This document shows, piece after piece, positions 23,827 to 33,051 of a stretch of 64,000 bases of DNA (its first letter is position 1; every line of letters begins with the position of its first letter). The position numbers and the translations under genes are program-made. Source of the stretch: Leptospiraceae bacterium (lineage in GTDB: Bacteria > Spirochaetota > Leptospiria > Turneriellales > Turneriellaceae); contig JANWWS010000013.1 of NCBI GenBank assembly GCA_025055765.1, positions 124,001 to 188,000 of the forward strand, written 5' to 3'. The notes below the pieces were generated by a model that searched no databases, was not told where the DNA came from, and was given only the letters and a program-made list of their open reading frames with translations.

Positions 23827-26607
23827 ATGAGTGTTTGTGTGGAGTCTCTTCGTAGTACCTATAGCACATCTCTTCGGTTTATATTCCTAGTTCTATCTTT
23901 TTCAGTAGTCCCTCATCCTCTTTGGGGGCAGGGGGTCGGCACCATCACGGGTACGGTACTCGATGCCGCTGATGGGCAACCGATAATTGGGGCTCAGGTG
24001 GTTGTTGAGGGACGGCCCGACCTTTATGGTGTTAGCGACATCGATGGTAACTATACGATCCGCAATGTGCCCGAGGGAACTGTCAAGCTGATCTACCGCA
24101 TGCCAGGCTATCAAACAGCTGTGGATACGGTTAAGGTTAGCCCCGGCAAAACCACCCGCAATAATGTAGCGCTTTCCTTTAAGGTTCAGGAAGAGATGGT
24201 GGTGACAGCCAAAAGAATTTCCAACACAGCAGCTGCTCTCTTAACTCGCCAAAAGAAAGCAGCCGCAGCTCAAGATGCTATTTCCGCAGAGCAAATTGCC
24301 AAAAGCCCTGACAACGACGCTGCCGATGCCGCGAAGAGGGTTACCGGTGTTAGCATAGTTGGCAATGGTAACATTTACATTAGGGGGATGGCCGATCGCT
24401 ATTCCGTGGTACAGGTAAATAAAAGCCTGGTCCCTTCCCCTATCCAAACCCGGCGGACAGTTCCATTAGACATCTTCCCGGTAGCCTTGCTTGATAATCT
24501 CACAATAATTAAGACCTATCTGCCCGAATACCAGGGTGAATTTGGTGCGGGTATTATTGAAATTGAAACCCGAGACTACCCGGAGGAGGGAGAGCTTAAG
24601 GTGGGACTTGGCATGGGCATGAATACGATTACCACAGGTCGCCCCTTTGGTACCTACCGTGGTGGAAAGCTCGACTACCTGGGCTTTGACGATGGGACAC
24701 GCCGCTTACCAGAAAGAGTAGAAGGCCGTAAAATTGTTCCTTATAGTGCAGTTACAGGAACAGGATATAGTAACCCGCAACTCTTTGGTATTGCACAAAA
24801 TTTTCAAAATGTTTGGACTAGGCAGGATGTTCAGGCCACCCCGGCCGCGAAATTTCAAGCATCGTATGCAAGGTCCTACAATCTTGGGGAAAGCCAAAAA
24901 CTTGGTTTTCTCGGCTCCATTTTTTGGCAAAATAATCTCCAGACTGTAAATGGTGTCTTTCGGCGCTATCTTGCCGATCGCTCGATTGCCACTGATTACA
25001 CCTATCATGACTTTACTTATTCGACGATTAAGAGTGCCCAGCTAGGTCTTACCTTTGCACCGAGTAACAACACGAAATATCGTTACAATGGGTTTTACAC
25101 TCACAAGTCTTCAGACACAACTCGGCAAAATATAGGCCAGTACGATTATTCCAAAGTGGGGACGAAAACTATCCTGGCTTTTTGGGAAACTCACCTTCTA
25201 TTTAACCAACTTTCTGCGGAGCATAAATTGGGATTTTTGGATGCGGAGTGGAAATACTTTGCTTCTTTTTCTTTGGCTTCTCGCAACCAACCAGATACTC
25301 GAGTGACGCGATACACCGAATTCGGTGTATTTGATCAATCTCGCAATTTCACAAGGTATTTTTTTTCCCATGGCGAACAGATTTACCAGGCGGGTACAGG
25401 TTTGGACATTCCTTTTGCTCAATGGAGTGGTCTTAAGTCAAAGTTTAGCGTAGGTTTAGATGGTTCCGCCCGACTACGGGAAACTACTAGTAGGCGTTTT
25501 CAGCATGATTTATTCAATGTGGGTGACCTGACTCAAAGAGCCGAGGTCATCTTCGTTACACAACAGCCACGCATTATAGAGACAACAGGCACTTCGGCAG
25601 CCGAGGGCTTTGATGCCTATAATGCTTCCCTGTTCATTGGCGCAGGGTATGCTCAAGTTGATATGCCCCTCGTTCCCAAGGTCCGTCTTATTGGTGGTAG
25701 CAGGGTAGAGATTTGGCAACAAAAAGCCGACTCCTTTAACCTCTTTGACAAGGACCTAAGGGTTAGCAACAAAATAGAAGCCGTAAGCTTCATGCCTGCG
25801 CTAAGTCTTGTTTTTTCGCCGTTAGAGGACCTCAACATAAGATTGGCTGGTAGTCAAACTATTAATAGGCCAGACTTTATAGAGGCTTCTAACTTTCGAG
25901 TTTTCGATGACCTTGTCACCGGGGCTATCCTGAAAGGTAATCCGGAGCTTACCTACGCTCGGATCACCTCAGCCGATGCCAGATTTGAGTTTTTCCCAAC
26001 TCCGGGTGAGGTTATAGCCATAAGTGGATTTTATAAAGAGATAAGGAATCCCATCGAAGCGTCTGTTGGTGCCTTAGCCGATGATTTACAATTCACTTAT
26101 GTAAATCAGGAAAAAGCTATTCTTTATGGCTCAGAATTTGAAATACGCAAGAATTTTAGCTTTCTAAGTGAGAGTTTACGATACCTATCTTTCTTAACGA
26201 ACTTCACCTTACTTTATTCGGAAATTTCTCTTAACCCAAATACCTTCACAGCAGAAACCAATAGGCGCCGCCCCCTGCAGGGCCAATCCCCTTGGCTTTT
26301 TAATGCGGGGCTTTATTGGGATTATGATCCTTGGGGCACAAGTTTAGCTCTGCTCTACAACATCTTTGGGCGGCGCATTGTTTTCGTGGGAGTAAATGGT
26401 CTGCCCAATACCTATGAAGAGCCATATCCAACCTTGGATGTGGTAGGGCGCCAAAGACTCACCCGCCAGCTTGAGATGAAGCTCACCGTTTCTAATATCC
26501 TAGATCCCCAAATTACCCAGAACCAGGGAACAGGGGCTGAGGCTATGCTCATAGAAAGATACCGTCGGGGTATAAATGTCGCCGGGAGCTTACAGTATGC
26601 GTTCTGA
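23827..26607 (+). CDS. TonB-dependent outer-membrane receptor with N-terminal carboxypeptidase-regulatory-like domain
   Basis: This is an energised outer-membrane importer for a large or scarce nutrient. The signal peptide ends near residue 36 (PLWGQ). Residues about 37-125 form a beta-sandwich of the CarboxypepD_reg-like type (GTITGTVLDAADGQPIIGA, YGVSDIDGNYTIRNVPEG). The plug follows: AISAEQIAKSPDNDAADAAKRVTGVSIVGNGNIYIRGMADRYS. The rest is a 22-strand type barrel ending with an aromatic residue (LQYAF). At 926 residues it is long but normal. The N-terminal domain is typical of SusC-type and related receptors. It is followed after 39 bp by a secreted lipoprotein, and the two are probably one uptake unit. 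The substrate is unknown; no iron-type operator is recognised. Confidence 0.93.
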   Translation: MSVCVESLRSTYSTSLRFIFLVLSFSVVPHPLWGQGVGTITGTVLDAADGQPIIGAQVVVEGRPDLYGVSDIDGNYTIRNVPEGTVKLIYRMPGYQTAVDTVKVSPGKTTRNNVALSFKVQEEMVVTAKRISNTAAALLTRQKKAAAAQDAISAEQIAKSPDNDAADAAKRVTGVSIVGNGNIYIRGMADRYSVVQVNKSLVPSPIQTRRTVPLDIFPVALLDNLTIIKTYLPEYQGEFGAGIIEIETRDYPEEGELKVGLGMGMNTITTGRPFGTYRGGKLDYLGFDDGTRRLPERVEGRKIVPYSAVTGTGYSNPQLFGIAQNFQNVWTRQDVQATPAAKFQASYARSYNLGESQKLGFLGSIFWQNNLQTVNGVFRRYLADRSIATDYTYHDFTYSTIKSAQLGLTFAPSNNTKYRYNGFYTHKSSDTTRQNIGQYDYSKVGTKTILAFWETHLLFNQLSAEHKLGFLDAEWKYFASFSLASRNQPDTRVTRYTEFGVFDQSRNFTRYFFSHGEQIYQAGTGLDIPFAQWSGLKSKFSVGLDGSARLRETTSRRFQHDLFNVGDLTQRAEVIFVTQQPRIIETTGTSAAEGFDAYNASLFIGAGYAQVDMPLVPKVRLIGGSRVEIWQQKADSFNLFDKDLRVSNKIEAVSFMPALSLVFSPLEDLNIRLAGSQTINRPDFIEASNFRVFDDLVTGAILKGNPELTYARITSADARFEFFPTPGEVIAISGFYKEIRNPIEASVGALADDLQFTYVNQEKAILYGSEFEIRKNFSFLSESLRYLSFLTNFTLLYSEISLNPNTFTAETNRRRPLQGQSPWLFNAGLYWDYDPWGTSLALLYNIFGRRIVFVGVNGLPNTYEEPYPTLDVVGRQRLTRQLEMKLTVSNILDPQITQNQGTGAEAMLIERYRRGINVAGSLQYAF

Positions 26608-26623: not shown

Positions 26624-26646
26624 AATACTTTAAAAAGGAGGACAAC

Positions 26647-28236
26647 ATGAAAAAGCAAAAAATTTTGCTAACAAGCTTGCTCACCCTGGGCTTTTTGGCC
26701 ATGGGCTGTGCAAGCGATGATAAAGAGAAAAAAGAGACGACGGGAGCAGGTGCACCTTTATGTAACCCAACCGAGGTCATTGAGGGGTTTATCTCGGTTA
26801 ATCGAACTATAGGGGCCAACTCTTGCGTGGCAATTAAGGGTGCGGTCACCGTTCTTCAGGGTGCGACTCTCAGGATTGAAGAAGGCGCCAAGGTTCTTGC
26901 CGATACGAGTACCTTAAGTTACATTAAGGTAAATCGTGGGGCCAAAATCGAAGCAGTGGGCACAGCTTCTAATCCTGTAATATTCACAAGTGGCGCTGCT
27001 GTGGGTTCTCGCTCTCCCTCTGATTGGGGTGGCATTGTTATCCATGGAGCTTCCGCGACAAATCAGACAGCAGGCTCCAATTACGCAGCGGATACGGAAA
27101 TCTTCACAGGACCTTATGGATGTGGTGATAGTAACTTTACTTGCCAAGGAACCCCCGCTCTTAGCAATAATGACAACAGTGGTGAGCTACGTTATGTACG
27201 CGTGGAGTTTGCCGGTCGGGAAATCGCATCTGGCAAGGAATTCAATGGCATTTTCCTTGCGGGAGTTGGCAAAGGGACAAAAATAGAGTATGTGCAGGTA
27301 CATCGCGGTTCTGATGATGGTATAGAGATTTTTGGCGGTGCGGTCGATATACGCTATGCCATTATTACGAACAACCAAGATGACCAGTTTGATGTTGACG
27401 AAGGCTGGCGGGGTATCGCTCAGTATGTCGTAGCAGCCGTACCTAAAGATGGGGACCAGGCTATCGAGTACGATGGAATAGGTGCGGACCGGTCCAGAGC
27501 TAGCAACACCATCATGTCAAATTTCACTATGCTCGGTAGTCTCAACAAAACCATACCCGGGGCTATATCTATCCGTGCATCAGGCACAGCAAGGATATAC
27601 AATTCTTACATCGCCCATTTCTGGGGGGCAAACGGGATCATTGCAGTGGCAAACGAATCCGTTTGCCTGGCGAAAGATGGAAATATGGTTCATCCAGGTC
27701 CAACTCCCGCCGAAACCGATGATCATTGTAACGGGGACCCGGTAACCCCCAACCCCGGATTTGTGGGTTCAGGCAGCGGAGCAGATGCCTTTGTTCTTCG
27801 TTTTGAAAGCAACTTTATCGAATGCGCCTTTACTGATGCGATGTTTTCTAACCCACGATCTGACCTAAATGCCCTCTTCGCCCGAGGTAACCAACCACAA
27901 GGCGCTCTGCCAAGCAAATTTAATGACAACCGTACTGCATCCGCCAGTCATCCAGTCTCTGATGTTGGCCGCTTTCCTGATAGTTCTGGTAATGGCGACA
28001 ATGTATATACTGGCTCTTGCAACTCCCCCAAGCTCTCGCGACCTGGGGAAAACATTCTTTGGGGTGTAACAAACGGTGTGGCTGAGTTTATCCCCGCTGC
28101 CAACATCACCGTCAGCAATTTCGCTGACCCACAGGCGGCACCCAATGGTACGGACCTACCTCAACCTACCTATATAGGTGCCTTTGCAGCTGGTGATACC
28201 TGGGCCAATGGCTGGACAGCCTTCCCCGTCAACTAA
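26647..28236 (+). CDS. Secreted lipoprotein with right-handed beta-helix-like repeats, paired with the TonB receptor
   Basis: The lipobox is LAMGC, with Cys21. A mature acidic linker (ASDDKEKKETTGAG) leads to a beta-helix-like region, where short strands repeat with patterns such as VLQGATLRIEEGAKV, YIKVNRGAKIEAVGT and LRYVRVEFAGRE, IEYVQVHRGSDDGIEIFGG. The TWANGWTAFPV segment closes the protein. The long NPVIFTSG and DWGGIVIHG stretches are known from large surface proteins in Bacteroidota and proteobacteria that lie beside TonB receptors. The position directly after the receptor suggests a ligand-binding surface partner, in analogy to SusD-type pairs, but it is not a SusD homologue. It has many Cys residues (at least six after the lipobox), which may form disulfides. 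Confidence 0.8.
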   Translation: MKKQKILLTSLLTLGFLAMGCASDDKEKKETTGAGAPLCNPTEVIEGFISVNRTIGANSCVAIKGAVTVLQGATLRIEEGAKVLADTSTLSYIKVNRGAKIEAVGTASNPVIFTSGAAVGSRSPSDWGGIVIHGASATNQTAGSNYAADTEIFTGPYGCGDSNFTCQGTPALSNNDNSGELRYVRVEFAGREIASGKEFNGIFLAGVGKGTKIEYVQVHRGSDDGIEIFGGAVDIRYAIITNNQDDQFDVDEGWRGIAQYVVAAVPKDGDQAIEYDGIGADRSRASNTIMSNFTMLGSLNKTIPGAISIRASGTARIYNSYIAHFWGANGIIAVANESVCLAKDGNMVHPGPTPAETDDHCNGDPVTPNPGFVGSGSGADAFVLRFESNFIECAFTDAMFSNPRSDLNALFARGNQPQGALPSKFNDNRTASASHPVSDVGRFPDSSGNGDNVYTGSCNSPKLSRPGENILWGVTNGVAEFIPAANITVSNFADPQAAPNGTDLPQPTYIGAFAAGDTWANGWTAFPVN

Positions 28237-28240
28237 AGCT

Positions 28241-28264
28241 AGGGCAGCTTAGGCTGCCCTTTTA
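28241..28264 (+). terminator. Terminator-like hairpin after the beta-helix lipoprotein
   Basis: AGGGCAGC-TTAG-GCTGCCCT (28241-28260) is a perfect 8 bp stem followed by TTTA. The right arm of this stem can pair instead with a second copy of the left-arm sequence 25 bp further on (see the neighbouring regulatory feature). Confidence 0.7.
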
Positions 28265-28294
28265 TAGACGCATAGGGCCTCTATAAAAGGGCAG
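28254..28294 (+). promoter_or_regulatory. Alternative hairpin that covers the ribosome site of the next gene
   Basis: CTGCCCTTTTATAGA (28254-28268) and TCTATAAAAGGGCAG (28280-28294) are a perfect 15 bp inverted repeat with an 11-base loop. It shares CTGCCCT with the terminator stem at 28241, so the two structures exclude each other. The right arm holds the purine-rich AAAAGGG that would be the ribosome site for the ATG at 28297. Confidence 0.6.
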
Positions 28295-28296
28295 TT

Positions 28297-28833
28297 ATGA
28301 TAAAAAAAGTTATAAAGATGGGCCATCTCAAGTGGGCAATCTTCTCGAGCCTGGCTCTAGGGATAATACTCTCTTGCCGCCATGAAATCCTTCTCACAAA
28401 CCCCTACCCCTCACTTAAGGAGCTAAGCGCAGCCCTTCTTGAGGCAGCTCAGGAAAACTCGCTAGAAAAGTGGCAAAAACTCCTCATTAGCCGAGAAGAG
28501 TTTCGGGAACATATTTACCCCTATTTACCTGAAGCAAAAGGCCCCGGCAAAGTGAGTGAGGAAGACTATTGGGAATGGGTTTCCATCGACACAGATAAGG
28601 CTCGTAAAAAACTCTTTGCCCTCTTGAAGGGGCGGGAGATAATATCTTTTGAAGTAAAAAACCCAACAAAAGTTTTGCGTCAAGGCCGGTATAAGATTCT
28701 GCGAGACATCCCTCTTGTGGTGCGGCTAAAAACGGAAAGTGGTGAAGAAAGCCTCGAGTCTCGGGAAATTCTTAAGGCCGTCATTGAAGCCCGTGGGGGT
28801 TACAAACTATGGAATTCCCTCTTTGAAGGCTAG
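28297..28833 (+). CDS. Putative lipoprotein of unknown function
   Basis: I do not recognise this 178-residue protein. The N-terminus is a lipoprotein signal with the box LGIILSC, so Cys27 is the likely anchor; starting at Met8 would give a better-placed signal. The mature part is helical and charged at first (LKELSAALLEAAQENSLEKWQKLL), then beta-rich with RYKILRDIPLVVRLKTESGEE. It lies 60 bp after the beta-helix lipoprotein and is preceded by the competing hairpins, so it could be expressed by read-through. A clear terminator follows. Confidence 0.75.
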   Translation: MIKKVIKMGHLKWAIFSSLALGIILSCRHEILLTNPYPSLKELSAALLEAAQENSLEKWQKLLISREEFREHIYPYLPEAKGPGKVSEEDYWEWVSIDTDKARKKLFALLKGREIISFEVKNPTKVLRQGRYKILRDIPLVVRLKTESGEESLESREILKAVIEARGGYKLWNSLFEG

Positions 28834-28859: not shown

Positions 28860-28886
28860 AAGCCCGCCACTGGCGGGCTTTTTTTT
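28860..28886 (+). terminator. Factor-independent terminator
   Basis: AAGCCCGC-CACTG-GCGGGCTT is a strong GC-rich stem followed by a run of six T. It closes the receptor and lipoprotein operon. Confidence 0.9.
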
Positions 28887-30726: not shown

Positions 30727-33051
30727 ATGTCAAGTTTTTTGTTTACTCTATGTTTTCTGCTTTGCTCATGCAAAAAGGAAATGCGCCTGCCCCTTCTCGT
30801 TCTATGGATAGTTATTTTCCCACCTACCCTAGCTTTTGAGAGAGTCCTGGTCACAGCGGGCAGCAGGATAAACATCGTGGGCAATCTTTACATATGGCAA
30901 GGCACGATGGCAGATTCGCCGGAGCCCCCTCTTTCTCACGGCCATTGGCAAAAGGTAGATTCTGATGTAAAAAAGGAGTATTTCCCTTTGCTTTACCCTA
31001 AAAACCCCGCATGGCTTTTTTTTGAGCTTGAGGGGCGAGACAGAGTTATAAAAGACTACATCCTGGAGGTTCCATACCCTAACATTTATGATATACGTAT
31101 TTTTGTCTTTGATGAAAAGGGGCTCGTATTCTCCAACTACTCAGGTAGTCGCTATGCCTTTCACCAAAGACCGATTTCGGACCGCCATTTTGTCTATCCC
31201 ATAGATTTGCCATACAAGAAAAGATTAAGGGTTTATCTCTACATACATAGTCTTGCCTCCCTACGCCTTGCGCTTTATATTTGCGATTCCAAATTATTTT
31301 ACGAGGGTAAAATAAAAGAAAATATCTTTTATTTTACACTATTTGGTCTCGCCTTAAGTCTTATCCTCTACAACACTATCTTTTTTGTTCGCTTTTGGGA
31401 CAAGAACTACCTCATATATGTGCTCTATGCTATTTCTTTTGTTTTGGTGCTTTTTCGTATCTCGGGTTTCGGATACCAATATCTTTGGCCAAGCTACCCA
31501 CTGATACAAATCTATAGTTTTCCCTTTCTGGCAATTCTGGTTTCCCTTCTCCTAAATATCTTCCTCCAATCTTTTTTGGGTCTTTTTAAAGGACCTCTCT
31601 TTACTCGCCTAAGCTCTTATCTTGTCTACTACCTGGCTCTGCCCGTATTCTCGGTAATCTTCTTTTTATCGATAGCCACAGCGTACAGGATAATTCTTCT
31701 CTACTCTGGTCTCGTACTCGTCAATGGCCTAATTCTTGCCTTAACAGGGCTGGCTCTGGGGCGCCGTGGTTCTATTATGATCTTGACCGCTTTTTCCTTT
31801 CCTCTCATGGGGGGGATTCTCAACATTTTACGATTCTTCGACATTTTACCCCCTGTTTTTGCCTACGAATATCTCTTTTATGGGAGTTCTCTGTGGGAGC
31901 TCTTTTTCTTTTCTATGGCTCTTTCCGACCGCTTTGCCCGACTTGAGGCTGAAAAAAGGGAAATAGAGAGTCGGGCACGGGAACGCAGTTTATTTTTTTC
32001 TGCCATTGGCCATGACTTACGCCAGCCACTAAACATTTTGTTAGGCTACTCACAAGAATTACAGCAAAACAAAGATATTACGTTATGGCAGGAACTCCTA
32101 CCCAAAATAACTTCCTCGGCCAGTACTTTAGCAGCGCTGGCTGAGGATGTCTTGGAATACGACCGCCTAGAAAGAGGGGAGCTAGCCCTCGAATTTTCTC
32201 TAACGAAAATTGACGAGGACTTATTTTTGCCCTTACGAGAGATGTTTTACAACAAAGCCCAATCAAAAGGACTCACTCTTTTATTTGAAAGCGAGGCCAC
32301 AAGACCTTACTTGGCTGATAAAGGTCGTATCTTGCGCATTTTAATAAATCTTGTCTCAAACGCGGTTAAATATACCGAAAAGGGGGGCATTCTTGTTTCC
32401 TTTCGGGAAAAAACCGTAAGGGACCAAATTCTTGGTGAATTTTCGATTAAAGATACGGGGATTGGCATGAGCGAGGAAGAACTAAAACTCATCTTTAAAC
32501 CCTATGTTCGTGTTGGCAAATACAAAGATGACCCCTCATACGGGGCTGGATTAGGCCTTGTTATTGTGAAAAAACTTGTGGAGCTTATGCGGGGCGAACT
32601 AAGCGTTGAAAGCGAGCGAGGGATTGGCAGTGTCTTTGTTTTTCGGCTTCCCTTGAAACCCTTCCCAGAGGCAGAGGGAAGAGAAGGCCAAACCAAGAGC
32701 CTAAAGCTAAGAAAGATACTCATTGTTGACGACGATCCAGATCAAATCGAGCTCCTTACCCGCCGACTTGGCGGATGGGGTCTCACTTGCTATAGTATTC
32801 GTTCCCTCGAGGAGGTAGCAAGCATACCCCCTGATGTGGAGTTAGCCTTGATTGACCTTCATCTTGGTCGCCATGATGGTCGCATGGTTGCGCAAAAACT
32901 TCGGGAGAAACTCCCCCATCTTTTCGTGATTTTTATTACAGGAAGTGAAGAGATCCTCCAAGAGAAAGCAGAGGGGCCCACCCTTGCTATTTTACAAAAA
33001 CCTCTTTCTTTTGGGAAGCTCTTTGAAATCTTACAAAAACATTTTAGCTAG
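30727..33051 (+). CDS. 7TM-DISM hybrid histidine kinase
   Basis: The protein has a periplasmic 7TMR-DISMED2-like domain (about 40-195), seven membrane helices (about 198-400), a short coil and a complete kinase and receiver set. HisKA: SAIGHDLRQPL with His429. HATPase: ILINLVSNAVKYTEKGG (N box), KDTGIGMS (G1) and GAGLGLVIVKKLVELMRG (G2). Receiver (about 663-774): ILIVDDDPDQ, phosphoacceptor Asp710 in LALIDLHLG, and Lys758 in QKP. So it autophosphorylates and can pass phosphate to its own receiver. The ATG 30781 (MRLPLLVLWIVI) gives a cleaner signal peptide than 30727, so the start is uncertain. No separate phosphotransfer protein or regulator lies close by. Confidence 0.9.
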   Translation: MSSFLFTLCFLLCSCKKEMRLPLLVLWIVIFPPTLAFERVLVTAGSRINIVGNLYIWQGTMADSPEPPLSHGHWQKVDSDVKKEYFPLLYPKNPAWLFFELEGRDRVIKDYILEVPYPNIYDIRIFVFDEKGLVFSNYSGSRYAFHQRPISDRHFVYPIDLPYKKRLRVYLYIHSLASLRLALYICDSKLFYEGKIKENIFYFTLFGLALSLILYNTIFFVRFWDKNYLIYVLYAISFVLVLFRISGFGYQYLWPSYPLIQIYSFPFLAILVSLLLNIFLQSFLGLFKGPLFTRLSSYLVYYLALPVFSVIFFLSIATAYRIILLYSGLVLVNGLILALTGLALGRRGSIMILTAFSFPLMGGILNILRFFDILPPVFAYEYLFYGSSLWELFFFSMALSDRFARLEAEKREIESRARERSLFFSAIGHDLRQPLNILLGYSQELQQNKDITLWQELLPKITSSASTLAALAEDVLEYDRLERGELALEFSLTKIDEDLFLPLREMFYNKAQSKGLTLLFESEATRPYLADKGRILRILINLVSNAVKYTEKGGILVSFREKTVRDQILGEFSIKDTGIGMSEEELKLIFKPYVRVGKYKDDPSYGAGLGLVIVKKLVELMRGELSVESERGIGSVFVFRLPLKPFPEAEGREGQTKSLKLRKILIVDDDPDQIELLTRRLGGWGLTCYSIRSLEEVASIPPDVELALIDLHLGRHDGRMVAQKLREKLPHLFVIFITGSEEILQEKAEGPTLAILQKPLSFGKLFEILQKHFS

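Follow-up and report, generated by a model that had tools for sequence, protein, structure and literature searches.

A stem-loop position apparently kept between two lipoprotein genes in two distant bacterial groups: a candidate partial terminator with a second stem over the next ribosome site in one genome

The window, i.e. the whole stretch of 64,000 nucleotides that was analysed, belongs to a contig of a 2.5-Mb genome of a Leptospiraceae bacterium and contains a unit of three genes which all lie on the forward strand. A TonB-dependent receptor gene is followed by two genes, here called gene 2 and gene 3, the products of which are predicted to be lipoproteins from their signal-like N-termini with an early cysteine. 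The unit probably ends at the terminator-like site behind gene 3. The genes and the elements of the junction between gene 2 and gene 3 are as follows.

23827-26607, forward strand: TonB-dependent receptor gene, first of the unit (926 aa; Pfam Plug and CarboxypepD_reg)
26635-26641, forward strand: AAGGAGG, ribosome site of gene 2, strong as judged from its sequence
26647-28236, forward strand: gene 2, predicted lipoprotein (529 aa; no Pfam or NCBIfam family for this member)
28234-28236, forward strand: TAA, stop of gene 2; arm 1 starts 4 nt later
28241-28248, forward strand: arm 1 of the terminator-like hairpin, AGGGCAGC; the loop TTAG follows
28253-28260, forward strand: arm 2 of the terminator-like hairpin, GCTGCCCT; in both stems from 28254
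28254-28268, forward strand: 5' arm of the 15-bp stem, CTGCCCTTTTATAGA
28260-28263, forward strand: short U-tract UUUU (TTTT), with ATAG next; pairing of its first U with A28241 is possible
28280-28294, forward strand: 3' arm of the 15-bp stem (arm 3), TCTATAAAAGGGCAG; the ribosome site of gene 3 lies inside
28285-28291, forward strand: AAAAGGG, ribosome site of gene 3, 5 nt upstream of the ATG at 28297-28299
28297-28833, forward strand: gene 3, predicted lipoprotein (178 aa; NTF2-like fold predicted)
28860-28886, forward strand: strong terminator-like site 3' of gene 3, with a 9-bp stem and a run of T

The structural model of gene 2 has a mean pLDDT of 57.9, with higher values in residues 40-340. 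A fold search with Foldseek yielded weak matches only, none of them at E <= 0.001, and the top rows were pectate lyases and tailspikes, which we take to be parallel beta-helix proteins. On this low-confidence model and these weak matches, gene 2 probably encodes a protein of this type. A search of PDB sequences gave nothing at E <= 0.1, and among 21 members of the gene 2 family there was no Pfam match and a single weak NCBIfam match, in one member. For gene 3 the model reached a mean pLDDT of 84.7 and consists of helices followed by a curved sheet. Foldseek gave no match at E <= 0.001; a second structural look yielded a cystatin-like protein (Z 9.9, rmsd 3.8, 137 aligned) and an NTF2-like protein (Z 8.9, rmsd 3.7, 107 aligned), with just 6 of 1000 chains at Z >= 8. 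Pfam returned one sub-threshold match, in one of six members of the gene 3 family. From their neighbourhood both lipoproteins would be expected to act beside the receptor. The ribosome site of gene 3 (AAAAGGG) is weaker than that of gene 2 (AAGGAGG). Further downstream, the open reading frame 28999-29532 matches the NCBIfam family LIC10415 below its cut-off (34.1 bits as compared to 180), and the large open reading frame 30727-33051, which on sequence resembles a sensor kinase that carries a receiver domain, contains a near-perfect 16-nt AT-rich inverted repeat at 31304-31340.

An earlier sequence-only reading had described two hairpins with one common arm at this junction which could not form together, the larger one hiding AAAAGGG, and had likened them to an attenuator which could respond to translation or a ligand. 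Its coordinates for both stems (28241-28248 with 28253-28260, and 28254-28268 with 28280-28294) and for the ribosome site are correct, and both structural claims were borne out. The small stem comprises 8 bp and the large stem 15 of 15 pairs, CTGCCCTTTTATAGA being fully complementary to TCTATAAAAGGGCAG. Positions 28254-28260 are common to both stems, which are therefore mutually exclusive there. The large stem can keep its outer 8 bp (28261-28268 with 28280-28287) when the small stem is formed, and for this reason the two folds lie only 5.1 kcal/mol apart (-30.4 as compared to -35.5 kcal/mol). The calculated probability of an unpaired ribosome site is 0.0 in the large-stem state and 0.45 with the small stem enforced; by calculation, the site is accessible in the small fold and closed off in the large one.

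Both hairpins are stronger than expected by chance. The 45-nt large hairpin folds with -27.8 kcal/mol (shuffle mean -11.3, z -5.97, none of 200 shuffles as good), and the small one with -16.2 kcal/mol (z -3.26, one of 200 shuffles as good). Pairing of arm 2 with the downstream sequence reaches -26.2 (shuffle mean -12.4), which was equalled by none of 2000 shuffles. As is typical of an intrinsic terminator, the small hairpin is a GC-rich stem right after the stop of gene 2 and between co-directional genes. Its U-tract at 28260 passes the rule of five T in eight positions only with the stem counted to 28259, and a consensus terminator scan listed 28241-28260 on the reverse strand only, not among the terminators of the forward strand. 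The 15-bp repeat was listed first among the 11 inverted repeats of the window and is the longest of the seven perfect inverted repeats (stem of 12 bp or more, loop not above 40) found over 448 kb of this contig (C49:1-448000), where the 7-nt succession of arm, anti-arm, and arm is found once on the forward strand, at the 28241 junction, and once on the reverse strand. Two more perfect inverted repeats of 13 bp are located on the same contig at C49:203712-203741 and C49:429611-429645. A DNA search of the genome with the hairpin found the hairpin itself only. The 15-mer occurs in its own two arms and at one site with one mismatch; two mismatches were seen at 14 further sites as compared to 7 for the reversed control pattern. 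A dispersed repeat of the REP-like or mobile palindrome type was rejected, as no further copy was found in the genome.

The likeness to an attenuator did not hold once the order of synthesis was considered. In an attenuator the antiterminator forms earlier than the terminator. Here arm 3 starts 17 nt past the end of the U-tract and lies 20-34 nt beyond the 3' arm of the terminator-like hairpin. Because the U-tract has already been made when synthesis of this second arm begins, the large stem cannot act as an antiterminator, and a transcription attenuator was rejected on the order of the arms, the alternative stem being complete only after the termination decision. When folding of the growing transcript was calculated, the large stem won once the 3' end had reached 28292 (transcript start at 28237) or 28293 (start at 28205). 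Since the hairpin and its UUUU precede arm 3, the large stem would act solely on RNA which has already been read through. The small fold would be expected to cut gene 3 by termination and the large fold by masking, and because either fold would thus reduce gene 3 the two are not an on/off pair. As to the proposed response to a ligand, the window has no Rfam match at gathering thresholds, which speaks against a known riboswitch or RNA family, and no described sensor was found. Shared arms do not make an attenuator if the order of synthesis is wrong, and an attractive but unlikely reading is corrected here.

The small hairpin was then considered in relatives. Homologues of gene 2 occurred in 23 of the 41 class genomes searched for it, from 48 in total; gene 3 was detected by profile search in 10 of the 48, the own genome counted, while a first scan of genome contigs with gene 3 had found no relative. 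Leaving out G002, G007, and G008, which had weak or partial gene 2 matches, and adding G047, which entered via a gene 3 match, 21 junctions were available. A hairpin was called terminator-like when it had a dG <= -10, at least five T in the next eight positions, and a location up to 100 nt past the stop of gene 2; the hairpin tests cover these 100 nt even if the next gene has already started. Such a hairpin follows gene 2 in 18 of the 21 class genomes (own genome counted) and is present in 30 of 356 co-directional control gaps, 17 of 218 from the own genome and 13 of 138 from 15 relatives (Fisher p 3e-15). Restriction of the controls to gaps of 30-120 nt left 9 of 86 (p 4e-11). The exceptions are G034 and G030, which lack a terminator-like hairpin, and G005, where a hairpin of -17.3 is followed by three T only; in G040 a hairpin other than the T-tailed one (-10.1) is the strongest. 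By eye the stems of the class share no sequence, so it seems to be the position of the hairpin rather than its sequence that is kept, each lineage retaining one there. How far the hairpin lies from the stop of gene 2 differs widely from genome to genome. This widely conserved position of the small hairpin had been missed by the sequence-only reading.

Gene 3 is poorly conserved yet forms one family in the class, as suggested by hhalign E values of 6.5e-18, 1.8e-11, and 1.6e-22, such values being pairwise between three alignments and not database-calibrated; the gene 3 alignments (A5-A7) were made without G011 and G034. A receptor directly upstream of gene 2 is established in six class genomes, and in G011 a receptor-like end is seen by eye at the contig edge upstream of gene 2. 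For the other 14 class genomes the available stretch does not establish a receptor at this place, and the conserved unit may therefore be the gene 2-gene 3 pair only. In G019 (locus L064) the hairpin is retained after gene 2 and gene 3 follows about 1,060 nt further downstream; something may have been inserted between the two genes. In G011 (locus L032) the frame of gene 3 is open, with no ATG, GTG, or TTG start yielding at least 120 aa after the hairpin, which may reflect an unusual start or a sequence error.

Another finding was that four gene 2 proteins, when used as queries in the scan, also brought up nine loci from Gemmatimonadota. Three of these (L091-L093) have no gene 2 stop within the stretch; in all six loci with a stop a TonB-dependent receptor precedes gene 2 on the same strand, one of the receptors being partial. 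In all five readable loci gene 2 is followed by a lipoprotein of about 200 aa which is homologous to gene 3 (hhalign E 2.4e-13 and 2e-13). In the order to which one such locus belongs, here called the Gemmatimonadales group, 201 genomes were searched and 74 had a match to gene 3. From this group 52 loci were used (L122-L153 and L154-L173); with L128 set aside and with L130, L135, L146, L163, and L170 lacking a gene 2 stop, 46 junctions from 45 genomes remained. A hairpin with a dG <= -25 is present no more than 100 nt past the stop of gene 2 at 36 of the 46 junctions and at 13 of 101 control gaps from 18 genomes (p 1e-14), or 6 of 47 with the controls limited to gaps of 40-250 nt (p 1e-10). 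Thirty-two of the 36 strong hairpins end upstream of the start of the gene 3 match; four do not. T-tailed terminators were counted at 16 of 46 junctions as compared to 11 of 101 controls (p 0.001), and many hairpins of this group may not be terminators. By eye, a core GCCGGYGCC...GGCGCCGGC recurs in many of the hairpins that follow gene 2 at loci L122-L173 and is possibly a 3'-end motif common to the Gemmatimonadales group. One Gemmatimonadota genome carries two gene 2-gene 3 units (G052:C769, locus L122, and G052:C806, locus L129).

The strength of these comparisons depends on the controls, the gene ends of which came from a simple ORF caller. Convergent gene pairs had a T-tailed hairpin with dG <= -10 in 12 of 80 cases in the class controls (3 of 19 and 9 of 61); in the Gemmatimonadales controls 1 of 57 was T-tailed and 7 of 57 reached dG <= -25. 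Because of the crude ORF caller and these low-scoring convergent pairs the hairpin background may be underestimated. The cleanest control is provided by the receptor-gene 2 junctions of the same operons, twelve in number, from six class genomes and six Gemmatimonadota loci. None of these twelve has a terminator and none a hairpin with dG <= -25, the junction of L088 being nearest to the threshold with -24.5. At the gene 2-gene 3 junction of the same twelve, a terminator is found in five of the six class genomes and a hairpin with dG <= -25 in all six Gemmatimonadota loci.

The large stem behaves differently from the small one. Its conservation was assessed, as far as this could be run with relatives from outside the genus, by pairing the 3' half of the hairpin with the next 50 nt and comparing the result to shuffles. 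At 18 other class junctions the alternative pairing was near shuffle level, with three at p < 0.05; the shuffles in this run could return the original sequence, and the window itself had p 0.004. The 33 testable junctions of the Gemmatimonadales group were likewise near shuffle level, with one at p <= 0.01. A pairing of CCTTTTCTG with CAGAAAAAGG in G033 looked promising by eye; its duplex proved no better than shuffles and it was discarded. The conservation of paired positions that a switch would lead one to look for was thus not found, and as far as can be seen the large stem is specific to this genome among the relatives examined, none of which is congeneric.

For the expression of gene 3, a search for sigma70-like promoters, which leaves other promoter types uncovered, found none beating shuffles before gene 3 in 17 genomes, and the distance from the hairpin to the start of gene 3 is often short (12 nt in G005, 9 in G023, 8 in G028, and 5 in G020). 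Read-through is therefore the simplest source of the gene 3 transcript. Taken together, we favour, with a probability of roughly 0.6, the reading of 28241-28260 as a partial terminator or 3'-end stem-loop between two cistrons, which holds gene 3 below gene 2. It is based on the sequence, the calculated structure, and a position kept in two distant groups, as well as on the absence of the hairpin from the receptor-gene 2 junctions tested and of a sigma70-like promoter before gene 3. The majority of receptor-gene 2 transcripts would end or gain protection at 28241-28260, and the smaller part would continue into gene 3, yielding less gene 3 protein than gene 2 protein. After read-through, arm 2 would re-pair via the 15-bp extension with the ribosome site of gene 3, and the large stem could lower translation of gene 3 further, a possibility raised by calculation for this genome only. 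Both the partial termination and the resulting expression ratio of the two genes are what we infer from these observations.

Several other explanations have to be weighed against this reading. One of them, which we regard as rather unlikely, takes the stem-loop mainly as an element of mRNA stability, i.e. an exonuclease-resistant 3' end or processing site by which the message of receptor and gene 2 is guarded and the gene 3 portion is left to decay, with the 15-bp stem offering a longer duplex for cleavage or protection. Most hairpins of the Gemmatimonadales group have no U-tract (a T-tail in just 16 of 46), which leaves room for such a role, and with a median best dG of -33.3 kcal/mol they are very strong; according to the available part of a study on importer operons, the folding energy of stem-loops also affects the stability of the upstream transcript (PMC9045158). 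Stability alone would not need the T-tail that is found in 18 of 21 class genomes. The hairpin could also be a plain operon end, with gene 3 transcribed from its own non-consensus promoter which overlaps the hairpin region and is possibly leaderless. An atypical promoter before gene 3 is possible: TATAAA at 28282-28287 ends 9 nt upstream of the ATG, and leaderless transcripts are described as common in Leptospira interrogans in the part of the source that was available (PMC5243855). We consider this explanation improbable, given that no sigma70-like pair rose above shuffles in the 17 genomes, that hairpin-to-start gaps are below 20 nt in several genomes, and that gene 2 and gene 3 stay adjacent in two distant groups.

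Two further explanations concern the large stem. That the 15-bp repeat is a recent replication accident, in which a template switch copied the terminator arm in reverse, and that it has no selected function, comes close to an even chance. Template switching generates such inverted repeats, 15 of 15 pairs are perfect, the repeat is exceptional in this genome alone among those examined, and at the DNA level it has no second copy in the genome. Its position right on the ribosome site of gene 3 speaks against an accident, and the relatives searched include no congeneric genome by which its origin could be dated. Such an accident would account for the extension only and is compatible with the partial-terminator reading. 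A regulated switch, in which the ribosome finishing gene 2 covers arm 1, no terminator forms, the large stem folds, and translation of gene 2 thereby controls gene 3, is in our view very improbable. Judged from the distance of 4 nt, arm 1 would lie inside the footprint of the terminating ribosome, and with states merely 5.1 kcal/mol apart exchange by branch migration is plausible. The event which prevents termination would also close the ribosome site, however, so that the two effects oppose each other; the alternative pairing was not found in the relatives tested, the variable offset from stop to hairpin is at odds with a conserved ribosome-coupled design, and Rfam offers no match. As a wider and more speculative view, which is doubtful, an old cis-acting stem-loop may fix how much gene 2 is made relative to gene 3 in an outer-membrane import unit of three parts, kept in two distant groups, and may here have grown into a bistable three-way element, the 3' arm of the terminator doubling as an anti-ribosome-site arm, and RNA which has been read through being silenced again unless the first fold is held.

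If the partial-terminator reading is true, an RNA stem-loop without obvious sequence conservation is kept at one spot of an operon across very distant bacteria, which would point to a transport unit, as yet uncharacterised, whose two partner lipoproteins are required in a certain ratio. Two families of genes that have no Pfam name gain a shared context, and the product of gene 2 is predicted to be in excess over that of gene 3. No description of this conserved stem-loop was found in titles and abstract openings of open-licence papers, among the matches listed.

Related arrangements are known from other systems. In Leptospira interrogans the operon LIMLP_04285 - lipL48 - LIMLP_04275 - LIMLP_04270 likewise combines, in a spirochaete, a lipoprotein gene with a TonB-dependent receptor gene and may be related to the present unit, but its gene order appears to be otherwise and the likeness noted is one of gene content; the word 'terminator' is absent from the main text of the source as far as it was available (PMC7567364). 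In the archaeon Methanococcus maripaludis termination inside operons has been measured to lower the expression of downstream genes, according to the part of the source at hand (PMC10450193); the same effect would apply here, where it is deduced from the sequence and concerns other genes. Attenuators share with this junction mutually exclusive stems with a common arm, one of them terminator-like, but the order of the arms is reversed here and the alternative stem is finished after the terminator. A close parallel is found in the ABC-importer operons of cellulolytic Clostridia, where, in the accessible part of the study, stem-loops just after the genes of binding proteins terminate partially and set the ratio of the products, tails are often U-poor, and promoters were predicted in 20.8% of those gaps (PMC9045158). 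As in the unit described here, the stem-loop lies inside the operon, there between the gene of a binding protein and later genes. The present unit differs in that it belongs to other phyla and combines a TonB-dependent receptor with two lipoproteins, one probably a beta-helix protein and one NTF2-like, in that termination would here be deduced rather than measured, and in that, in this genome, the 3' arm of the stem-loop has the next ribosome site as a second possible partner.
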